Source of the DNA: Agrobacterium tumefaciens
GTDB lineage: Bacteria > Pseudomonadota > Alphaproteobacteria > Rhizobiales > Rhizobiaceae
Reading direction: 5' to 3'
Assembly: GCF_017726655.1 (NCBI RefSeq)
Contig: NZ_CP072308.1
Span: 1,860,001 to 1,924,000, forward strand
Length of the DNA: 64,000 nucleotides
This document shows positions 25,198 to 27,522 of the stretch, piece by piece. A program made the translations under genes and the position numbers. Position 1 is the first letter of the stretch, and each line of letters opens with the position of its first letter. Below the pieces are notes generated by a model. That model did no database searches. It was not told the DNA's origin and worked only from the letters and a program-made list of their open reading frames with translations.

Positions 25198-26304
25198 TCA
25201 GATTTCCGCGCCGCGTGCCGCATCCGCAGCACCGGCACTCTGTTGCCGGTTATAACGGATGGACGACCACAGCGAGATGCCGATGAGGGTCGCGCCGCCA
25301 AGGCCGGTAATGACCTCAGGGATATGAACCATGGTCTGCACGTACATGATGACGGACAGGATCAGGATCGCATAGAAGGCGCCGTGTTCCAGATAGCGGT
25401 ATTCGGCAAGCGTCCCCTTCTCCACCAGCATGATGGTCATGGAGCGCACATACATGGCGCCGATGCCGAGGCCGATAGCGATGATGAAAAGGTTCTGCGT
25501 CAGTGCGAAAGCGCCGATTACGCCATCGAAGGAGAAGCTGGCATCCAGTACTTCGAGATAAAGAAACGCACCGAAGCCGCCCTTTGCCGCCCCTTCCAGC
25601 ATTTCCTGGCTGCGATCGAGAATGCCGCCGACCACTTCCACCAGAAGGAAGGTCAACAGACCCCAGATCGCGGAATGGAAGAAGGTATTGGCCGCGACCG
25701 GACCAAGTTCAGGATTATCGCTGGCGCCGATGATGCGGGAAAAGATCAGCATCACGACAAGTACGAAAGCGATTTCGATGCCCTTGACGGAAGAATAGGT
25801 CGCAGCTTTTTCCTCGATCCAGCGCACCCAATGCACATCCTTCTCATGGTCGAAGAAGAAGTTGAGACCGACCATCATCAGGAAGGTGCCGCCAAATGCC
25901 GCGATCGGCAAGTGAGCGTCACGCATGATTTCCGCATAACGTTCCGGCTGGGTCGCTGCCATGACGATCGCCGTCCAGGGGCCGACATTCGCGGCGACGA
26001 CAACGATCAGCAGCGGAAAGACGATACGCATGCCAAAAACGGCAATCAAAATACCCCAGGTCAGGAAGCGATGCTGCCAGACCGGCGTCATGTCCTTCAG
26101 CTTGTTGGCATTGACGATGGCATTGTCGAAGGAAAGAGAAATTTCCAGCACCGCCAGAACGACGCAGATGAAGAAGATCGTGGCCGTGCCGCCGACCGTG
26201 CCGGTCATTTCCCAGCCAAGATAGCCGCCGAGGATCAGACCGACGACAGTGACGATAAAAGCCCACTTGAAGTAGGAGAGCGTGGTTTTCTGGGCGGCGC
26301 TCAT
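25198..26304 (-). CDS. TerC-superfamily DUF475 membrane protein
   Basis: 368 residues with about nine membrane segments. Two inverted-repeat halves each carry the TerC acidic motif: LAVLEISLSFDNAIVNA near residue 50 and FLYLEVLDASFSFDGVIGA near residue 245. TerC proteins are linked to metal-ion export, notably manganese, and tellurite resistance; DUF475 is a branch whose substrate I cannot assign. The ATG overlaps the stop of a 33-codon ORF (ATGA, 26301-26304). A folded RNA lies about 170 bases upstream, so expression is probably controlled after transcription starts. Confidence 0.87.
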   Translation of the reverse strand: MSAAQKTTLSYFKWAFIVTVVGLILGGYLGWEMTGTVGGTATIFFICVVLAVLEISLSFDNAIVNANKLKDMTPVWQHRFLTWGILIAVFGMRIVFPLLIVVVAANVGPWTAIVMAATQPERYAEIMRDAHLPIAAFGGTFLMMVGLNFFFDHEKDVHWVRWIEEKAATYSSVKGIEIAFVLVVMLIFSRIIGASDNPELGPVAANTFFHSAIWGLLTFLLVEVVGGILDRSQEMLEGAAKGGFGAFLYLEVLDASFSFDGVIGAFALTQNLFIIAIGLGIGAMYVRSMTIMLVEKGTLAEYRYLEHGAFYAILILSVIMYVQTMVHIPEVITGLGGATLIGISLWSSIRYNRQQSAGAADAARGAEI

Positions 26305-26402
26305 GTCCGGTCACCATTCATGACGAGGACGGTCGCGGGCCGACGCAGGGCGTCCGGCCGCACGCAGAAAGCACGCGCGCGAAGCACATTCAGGTTTTTC
26401 AT
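26301..26402 (-). CDS. 33-residue leader ORF overlapping the DUF475 start
   Basis: The ORF begins MKNLNVLRARAFCVRPDALR and ends MNGDRT, with six or more arginines. GGCGGA lies about nine bases before its ATG. Its TGA overlaps the ATG of the DUF475 gene as ATGA, which would couple their translation. It sits between the folded RNA and the TerC-like gene. No family is known to me. It may be a regulatory leader peptide; a chance frame is possible, since the ORF stays open further upstream (to 26540). Confidence 0.4.
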   Translation of the reverse strand: MKNLNVLRARAFCVRPDALRRPATVLVMNGDRT

Positions 26403-26472
26403 AGTTTTTAATCCGCCGGCCAATTTTGCAGGCGGTACCGACATCACGAGAGCGCCGTAAAACTCTCGCCAG

Positions 26473-26530
26473 AGGGGCCCGGCACCTTTGTTTCCTCTGC
26501 CCATGCGAGACAAATCATCGCAGGGCCCCT
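26473..26530 (-). ncRNA. Three-way-junction leader RNA, candidate terC motif
   Basis: Read on the minus strand, AGGGGCCC (26530-26523) closes on GGGCCCCT (26480-26473). Inside are two hairpins: UGCGA/UCGCA (26522-26518 with 26508-26504) and GGCA/UGCC (26501-26498 with 26484-26481), the latter with a purine-rich GAGGAAACAAAGG loop. CGAGAG/CTCTCG may form a further stem downstream. It precedes a TerC-family gene. The published terC RNA motif is described upstream of such genes in Alphaproteobacteria; I could not compare it with the covariance model. Confidence 0.6.
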
Positions 26531-26595
26531 TCTTACTCACTGAAGATCACGCCGTCGTCAAGTCCCGTGATTGTGCGCTTGGCTGACGGCGAGGA

Positions 26596-27522
26596 TCAAA
26601 CCTGCTCCGCCGCCAGTCCCGCCGCCGTATCACGGCGTCGTTTGAGGGCGTTTTCGCGGAAGAAGATGTAAAGGCCGGAAAGAACAATCAAGCCGGCACC
26701 GATAACGATGCTCGTCTGCGGCACGTCACCGAAAAACAGCCAGCCGAAAATGACAGCCCAAAGCAGCAGCGTATATTGCAGCGGCGCGACCGTCGCGGCG
26801 TCGGCAAGTTTGAGCGCCCGGTTGACGAGCACATGGGCCGCCATGGCCACAACGCCCAGCAGGCCAAGAAATGCCAGATCAAAGCCGGACTGTACCGGCA
26901 ACCATCCGGCCGGTGTTACCAGTACCGCGACGATACCCGCCAGACCCGCGCCAATGATCTGCCAGAATGCCAGTACCGTATCCGGTGTGTTGCGCAATTG
27001 CCGGCCGGACAGCATCATGAAGGCGAAAGCGGCACTGCCGAGAATGGAAAAGAGTGCCGCGGAGGTGAGGCTTGCCGAGCTAGGCTTCAGAGCGATGAGG
27101 ACACCGACGAAACCGATGGCAATAGCCGTCCAGCGACGCCAGCCAACCTTTTCGCCAAGCAGAAATGGCGACAGCGCGGCAACGTAGATCGGCGCGGCTA
27201 GCCAGTAGGTCATGACGTCAGCGAGCGGCAAGGCGGCGACGGCGAAGTAGAAACAGAAAAGCTCGGCGGTGGAGAAGAAAACACGCGCCGCCTGAAGGCC
27301 GGGCCGCTCGATTTTTACGAGTCCGGAAACGCCGCCCCTCCAGACGATCGGAACGAGAATGACAAGCGCGGCAGCGCTTCTGATCAGGATGACCTGACCC
27401 TGGCTGTAAGTCGACACGAGCCATTTCCCCATGGCGTCATTCAACGCAAAAAGCAGCATTCCAAGCAGCATTACGGCCACGCCGAGGCCAGTCGGCGATA
27501 GCTTCTTCATCATAGTCGACAT
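26596..27522 (-). CDS. EamA/DMT superfamily transporter
   Basis: 308 residues with ten membrane segments in two EamA repeats; LFALNDAMGKWLV and the PIYVAALSPFLLGEKVGWRRW turn are characteristic. The substrate is unknown. ATG 27522 (MSTMMKKLSP) replaces a longer start that adds 28 poorly hydrophobic residues. It lies upstream of the TerC leader on the same strand and may be co-transcribed with it unless a terminator intervenes, and is convergent with nothing. A LysR gene lies 100 bases upstream on the same strand. Confidence 0.82.
   Translation of the reverse strand: MSTMMKKLSPTGLGVAVMLLGMLLFALNDAMGKWLVSTYSQGQVILIRSAAALVILVPIVWRGGVSGLVKIERPGLQAARVFFSTAELFCFYFAVAALPLADVMTYWLAAPIYVAALSPFLLGEKVGWRRWTAIAIGFVGVLIALKPSSASLTSAALFSILGSAAFAFMMLSGRQLRNTPDTVLAFWQIIGAGLAGIVAVLVTPAGWLPVQSGFDLAFLGLLGVVAMAAHVLVNRALKLADAATVAPLQYTLLLWAVIFGWLFFGDVPQTSIVIGAGLIVLSGLYIFFRENALKRRRDTAAGLAAEQV

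Follow-up and report, generated by a model that had tools for sequence, protein, structure and literature searches.

A terC RNA ahead of a DUF475/TerC gene of Agrobacterium tumefaciens and a short reading frame that may relay its control

The RNA that lies upstream of, and on the same strand as, the DUF475/TerC gene in the window (by which we mean the whole 64,000-nucleotide stretch of A. tumefaciens DNA that was analysed) is a true member of the terC RNA family, a catalogued and already known family of regulatory RNAs. We propose, at a probability of about 0.55, that this cis-regulatory RNA controls the first start codon downstream of it and that DUF475 would follow by termination-reinitiation, with a short upstream open reading frame (uORF) as the relay. 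The proposal draws on sequence comparison and on analogy with a known system. The terC motif was reportedly described in a 2017 paper. In the open-licence literature, which excludes that paper, we found no earlier description of a conserved uORF relay after a terC RNA and no paper on the ligand or the uORF of this RNA, and the riboswitch reviews examined do not mention "terC". A study of the S. meliloti small proteome, a source available in part, discusses uORFs in 5' UTRs and TerC is absent from its main text, and in the available part of a Bartonella paper DUF475 appears as a predicted sRNA target only.

The terC RNA and its conserved helices

A cmscan of the whole window with Rfam 15 assigned the element to RF03067 with 63.1 bits, compared to a gathering score of 39.9. 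The match covers the full model (positions 1-59) and is not truncated. At the gathering score the window contains two matches, one tRNA and the terC RNA. In a permissive scan of 26280-26640, the terC RNA was the sole family above its gathering score, and the two further matches were both far under their cut-offs. The yybP-ykoY Mn2+ riboswitch, which is found upstream of alx/TerC genes and resembles the terC RNA in that it controls TerC-family genes, gave no match in the window at the gathering threshold, nor up to E = 1 in 26280-26640.

An earlier note on this DNA, made from the letters alone, had placed a structured RNA at 26465-26535, pointed to a published terC RNA upstream of such genes and proposed a comparison with the Rfam model. 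This identification was borne out: the match is well above the gathering score, and the gene downstream has matches to PF04332 and PF03741. The placement was right in part, since the terC RNA overlaps the reported span and only partially falls inside it; its centre lies approximately 40 nt downstream of the midpoint of that span. The locus shares with RF03067 the sequence, both helices and the position upstream of TerC-family genes. The Rfam model has 59 positions and ends 6 positions past P1, and it does not include the hairpins P0 and P3 or the uORF (Table 1).

Table 1. Features of the terC RNA leader and the DUF475 gene, in positions of the window.
Feature	Coordinates	Strand	Description
CTTGAC, candidate -35 element	26557..26562	-	82 nt before core
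Clamp 5' arm AGGGGCCC	26523..26530	-	possible lineage-specific competitor of P1; not conserved
P0, local 5' hairpin	26499..26526	-	26526-26518 with 26508-26499
terC RNA RF03067	26429..26490	-	full model 1-59; Rfam
P1	26434..26486	-	26486-26479 with 26441-26434, 8 pairs, two of them G-U; fold of element
Core strand GGGCCCCTCTG	26470..26480	-	columns invariant in 65 class-wide sequences; includes clamp 3' arm 26473-26480
P2 hairpin	26446..26469	-	26469-26462 with 26453-26446; fold of element
Core GATGTC	26440..26445	-	columns invariant in 65 class-wide sequences
P3, hairpin before uORF start	26413..26435	-	CCGCC 26435-26431 with GGCGG 26417-26413; predicted fold
uORF	26301..26402	-	ATG at 26402, 33 codons, TGA 26303-26301
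ATGA overlap of uORF stop and DUF475 start	26301..26304	-	sequence
DUF475/TerC-family membrane protein gene	25198..26304	-	368 codons; PF04332 350 bits, PF03741 75 bits

The fold of the element, P1 enclosing P2, is supported by compensatory changes in 65 aligned class-wide cores. These were hand-picked for diversity out of 109 distinct cores, a list that took only 12 of the nearly identical DUF475 cores. In P1 five of the eight pairs change on both sides and the other three are invariant; in P2 this applies to all seven pairs counted. Together, 91.1% of the cells in the two helices are paired, 12 of 15 pairs show two-sided changes, and the covariation score is 0.547, compared to 0.196 for shuffled and 0.087-0.165 for slid alignments. 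All spacings quoted here are counted from the end of the core GATGTC.

The local 5' hairpin P0 was compared in 13 rows comprising the window and 12 close Agrobacterium leaders. In these rows, 95.7% of its cells are paired, a percentage reached by none of 500 shuffles, and three of its nine pairs show two-sided changes. The hairpin P3, just ahead of the uORF start, shares positions 26434-26435 with the outer end of P1, so that the two would partially compete. The sequence of P3 is nearly invariant in 39 Rhizobiaceae-type rows, which precludes a covariation test.

The uORF and the proposed relay

The region between the RNA and DUF475 was compared in 96 DUF475 loci (75 of 80 loci, which had a recognisable core, 20 of 30 family-sample loci, which had DUF475, and the window), corresponding to 93 distinct leaders including that of the window. 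Five loci without a recognisable core or an RF03067 match at the gathering score (L067, L069, L070, L072 and L116) are outside the 93, and the duplicate loci L123 and L153 were dropped from the comparisons of the P2 loop, the core list, CTTGA and clamp complementarity. In all 93 leaders an ATG is found 36-41 nt past the core. In 81 of them, including the window with an offset of 37 nt, it opens a uORF of 22-39 codons at an offset of 36-40 nt; in the other 12, termed direct leaders, which belong to Rhodobacterales genera, it is in the DUF475 frame at an offset of 36-41 nt. In all 81 the uORF stop is placed between -2 and +8 nt relative to an in-frame DUF475 ATG. Measured to the nearest such ATG, which is somewhat generous, and in related leaders, whose counts are not independent, the overlap is 4 nt in 64 and 1 nt in 14 of the 81 (78 together); of the remaining three leaders, L196 and L197 have the stop 8 nt past the DUF475 start, and L051 has it 2 nt short of that start. 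In the two alternative frames, the same stretch is free of stops in 37 of 162 cases. The length of the uORF differs between genera, and those that have it include Agrobacterium, Rhizobium, Ensifer, Mesorhizobium, Haematobacter and Frigidibacter. Outside the 93, the same layout is present on pSymB of S. meliloti 1021, with a uORF of 38 codons and the same ATGA, and in L232, with one of 22 codons. A longer frame that runs back through the RNA to a GTG at 26540 was rejected, since the start offset varies between 36 and 40 nt and the longer frame is thus not conserved.

The spacing between the core and the first start is the same in uORF-type and direct leaders, which is most simply read as control of initiation at this start by the terC RNA. 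In the proposed relay, a signal would decide between the formation of P1, together with P2, and its replacement by competing pairings. These would be P3, a putative expression platform, and in this lineage perhaps also the 5' clamp discussed below. The balance between P1 and its competitors would set initiation on the uORF, and ribosomes ending at the ATGA would reinitiate on DUF475, so that the uORF would serve mainly as a relay and less as a conserved peptide. That the signal is cation- or pH-related is a guess, based on the neighbouring genes and on the E. coli alx riboswitch, which is of the Mn2+/alkaline kind.

The closest analogy is the B12 riboswitch of M. tuberculosis ppe2, for which the available part of the source reports, by experiment, that PPE2 depends on the translation of a uORF (uPPE2) with an AUGA overlap (PMC11260477). 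In both systems a leader RNA is followed by an out-of-frame uORF whose stop overlaps the next start, and the conserved uORF after the terC RNA has an overlap of this type in nearly all non-direct leaders. The ppe2 RNA, however, is unrelated and has a known ligand, and PPE2 is described there as lacking a Shine-Dalgarno sequence, whereas many DUF475 leaders carry a GAGG. Moreover, coupling through the uORF is shown for ppe2, whereas for DUF475 we infer it. The SAM-II riboswitch of S. meliloti metA is also rhizobial, and its Shine-Dalgarno sequence acts on translation that starts further downstream; in contrast to the layout described here, its AUG2 shares the frame of AUG1 and follows the Shine-Dalgarno sequence by 74 nt, and there is no stop/start overlap (PMC9373788, in the part available). 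If the relay is real, it would add to the M. tuberculosis case a second setting where a uORF mediates the action of a regulatory RNA, one that is conserved over many species. The probable transcript start, the probable controlled start codon and the need for the uORF can guide the design of constructs; too short or too long constructs are a named cause of failed work on orphan riboswitches (PMC10043782, Box 3, the source being available in part).

The terC RNA could also control DUF475 with the uORF being an accident or a spacer, in which case DUF475 would use its own Shine-Dalgarno sequence and the nucleotides after the first ATG would be part of an RNA structure. We consider this unlikely. 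It would fit the variation of the uORF in four clades (44 sequences), where the variable columns in codons 2-13 number 1, 0, 1; 2, 2, 4; 4, 4, 5; and 4, 1, 2 of 12 each at the first, second and third codon positions. There is thus little third-position excess, and the region looks conserved as nucleic acid. It would also fit a GAGG found shortly before the DUF475 ATG, inside the tail of the uORF, in 58 of 81 leaders, in which DUF475 might start on its own. The window, however, is among the 23 of 81 without GAGG, and the Shine-Dalgarno sequence of its DUF475 is GGTGA (within 26304-26321). The frame moreover is open up to the DUF475 start in every non-direct leader despite the varying length of the uORF, and the other frames, as given above, mostly are not; the proposed relay would account for this. 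The Shine-Dalgarno sequence of the window's uORF itself, GGCGGA, is weak as judged by eye. At some uORF starts (e.g., L078 and L085), a few codons past the ATG, a short loop lies between CATGC and GCATG; the two could form a hairpin that might explain the conservation at the nucleotide level there.

It is improbable, in our view, that the terC RNA acts mainly on transcription, by termination or through Rho, with the uORF protecting the transcript. A weak terminator-like site of 5 pairs is found inside the uORF (26388-26376), and loss of Rho protection was also weighed by the authors of the ppe2 study, in the part of it available (PMC11260477). However, two terminator-like sites are present in 401 bases, compared to 0.4 expected, the second of them is inside the DUF475 gene, and no terminator directly follows P1 or P3.

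Just as improbable is a functional leader peptide that senses a signal of its own, by attenuation or ribosome arrest, with the terC RNA as a second control. The N-termini are alike within genera (MKKLTMPHAHA-like), and past codon 13 synonymous changes make up 51, 63, 28 and 54% of the single-base differences between codons in the four clades, in pairwise counts that are not independent, compared to 29, 27, 23 and 25% expected. This synonymous excess in three of the four clades gives a role of the peptide a small chance. The clade with 28% compared to 23% speaks against it, as does the little similarity in amino acids between genera past the first residues. The frame and the site of the stop are kept while most of the peptide drifts, which suggests that the peptide is constrained at most weakly; as a conserved peptide the uORF has little support.

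The 5' side of the leader and competing pairings

The earlier note had described a three-way junction in which an 8-bp GC clamp encloses two hairpins, about 170 nt before the TerC/DUF475 gene. All its parts can be drawn on the minus strand: 26530-26523 (AGGGGCCC) and 26480-26473 (GGGCCCCU) are complementary at every position, the first hairpin (26522-26504) pairs as UGCGA/UCGCA, and the second (26501-26481) as GGCA/UGCC around a purine-rich loop. The distance is also correct, with 169 nt from 26473 to 26304. That the arrangement was too ordered for chance holds for the clamp. Of 500 dinucleotide shuffles of these 71 nt, 4 contain a Watson-Crick helix of 8 bp, and such a helix around 40 nt or more is present in a single one of 901 consecutive 71-nt windows along the minus strand. 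As a whole the segment has only modest stability: 7 of 200 shuffles fold equally well (z -1.97), and within the same 71 nt the junction as drawn has -26.2 kcal/mol compared to -29.5 kcal/mol for the best fold.

The conserved fold of the terC RNA is not this junction, which would compete with P1. In the 13 close rows, 88.5% of the clamp cells are paired, all eight pairs (allowing G-U) are kept in 7 rows, and no pair shows a two-sided change. A partner for GGGCCCCU with seven or more Watson-Crick pairs is present in 2 of 9 distinct close upstreams, in 0 of 78 other DUF475 upstreams and in 0 of 90 other upstreams of terC RNAs. The 3' arm of the clamp is the invariant GGGCCCC of the terC core, which explains its conservation; the 5' arm is not conserved. 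The earlier note had named the lack of a model match and the lack of compensatory changes in related leaders as grounds for giving up its reading: the terC RNA has the match and, in P1 and P2, the changes, and it is the clamp that lacks such changes. The first hairpin of the junction is the inner part of P0, which covaries. We thus reject the junction as a conserved fold: the clamp is incomplete in close rows, lacks two-sided changes and is absent from distant upstreams. That the junction is the functional RNA, with the terC match being secondary, is very improbable despite the rarity of the clamp and its place in the energy minimum of transcripts that start at 26529 or further upstream.

The clamp is possibly a lineage-specific competitor of P1. 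For a window transcript from 26531, energy folding gives -52.2 kcal/mol with clamp and P3, compared to -45.2 kcal/mol when P1 is forced; for one from 26526 the P1 fold is taken, at -45.5 kcal/mol. No clamp is predicted for starts at 26526 or further downstream. The inner pairs of P1 reach a probability of 0.5 in only 8 of 36 chosen DUF475 leaders. Folding of single sequences alone thus does not favour P1, the support for which rests on covariation.

The position of the transcript start bears on these folds. In 73 of 81 uORF-type leaders a CTTGA box precedes the core by 76-104 nt, and for the window it suggests a start near 26530; a strict sigma-70 scan detects no promoter here. Among 65 distinct uORF-type upstreams that do not belong to the close Agrobacterium clade, 46 contain GACATC, which is complementary to the core GATGTC, compared to 1.54 in shuffles, a count that is inflated by shared ancestry. 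It is usually found in the loop of P0 (e.g., L049:1269-1416 and L085:1243-1391), and the stems around this loop have diverged. GACATC is present in 0 of 9 upstreams of the close Agrobacterium clade and in 0 of 12 direct leaders. As the core GATGTC never varies, the two motifs cannot covary. Judged by these complementarities, both lineages could have a 5' segment that is able to hold the core in another fold. A wider reading, which we hold to be possible though rather unlikely, is that the terC RNA senses cation or pH stress in the manner of a riboswitch, that its direct output in Rhizobiaceae is translation of the uORF, which has a nearly free sequence and is solely a relay to DUF475, and that before the signal is present the core is kept in an alternative fold by a fast-evolving 5' arm (the clamp in this Agrobacterium lineage, the GACAUC loop in the majority of other Rhizobiaceae leaders).

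Two other pairings were tried and found to be weak as general rules. The core strand CCCCUCUGG as an anti-Shine-Dalgarno sequence gives a mean z of -0.30 over 44 distinct TerC loci; 7 of the 44 are in the best 5 and 11 in the best 20 of 100 shuffles, and the pairing is striking in a few loci (L132, L013 and L135). In the TerC loci L022, L014, L145 and L146, the loop of P2 could pair without a mismatch, over 7-9 nt, with the sequence just ahead of the start codon. Four downstream regions were tried, and in the best of them, 8-50 nt after the core, pairing with this loop gives z 2.0 for 62 non-DUF475 loci (29 of 1000 permutations as good), z 2.4 for 9 direct DUF475 loci (17 of 1000) and z -0.4 for 12 loci of the uORF type, the window's group (665 of 1000). 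The pooled z of 4.4 may reflect differences between the groups; with all 139 loci mixed, 4 of 200 permutations are as good.

Distribution of terC RNAs and their neighbours

RF03067 has 76 matches in 52 of 385 class-sampled genomes and is present in 114 of 199 family-sampled and 45 of 299 phylum-sampled genomes. Six of the latter belong to a single family outside the class (G624, G627, G631, G702, G743 and G811), with TerC downstream in three typed loci (L219, L224 and L231). The genome of the window contains a second terC RNA (L002, G000:C1:237478-237536, minus strand, 47.6 bits) ahead of a gene for a 327-aa TerC protein, and downstream in this locus GGATGGGG...CCCCATCC is able to form a long hairpin. 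Two of the four TerC genes over the cut-off in this genome thus have a terC RNA.

By phmmer, TerC homologues lie downstream of at least 47 of the 76 matches in the class sample; those left untyped are L028, L129, L148, L152, L222, L223 and the second match of L124. Other downstream genes encode DUF4112, TerB, DUF533, carbonic anhydrase, diacylglycerol kinase, CitMHS and ATPase inhibitor zeta, as well as YdjM at a distance of 446 nt. NhaA (L004) and Bax1-I (L208, from the phylum sample) are second after a small ORF. Three loci (L014, L023 and L124) contain divergent pairs of terC RNAs slightly more than 100 nt apart, and in L014 and L023 the gene ahead of one RNA encodes TerC and that ahead of its partner DUF4112. 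Finally, in 9 of 15 long-gap loci inspected (L004, L024, L208, L213, L214, L216, L233, L234 and L235) a small basic ORF of about 57-93 codons lies between the terC RNA and the next gene, which is TerC, NhaA or Bax1-I where typed. By eye, this intervening ORF resembles YdcH/DUF465.
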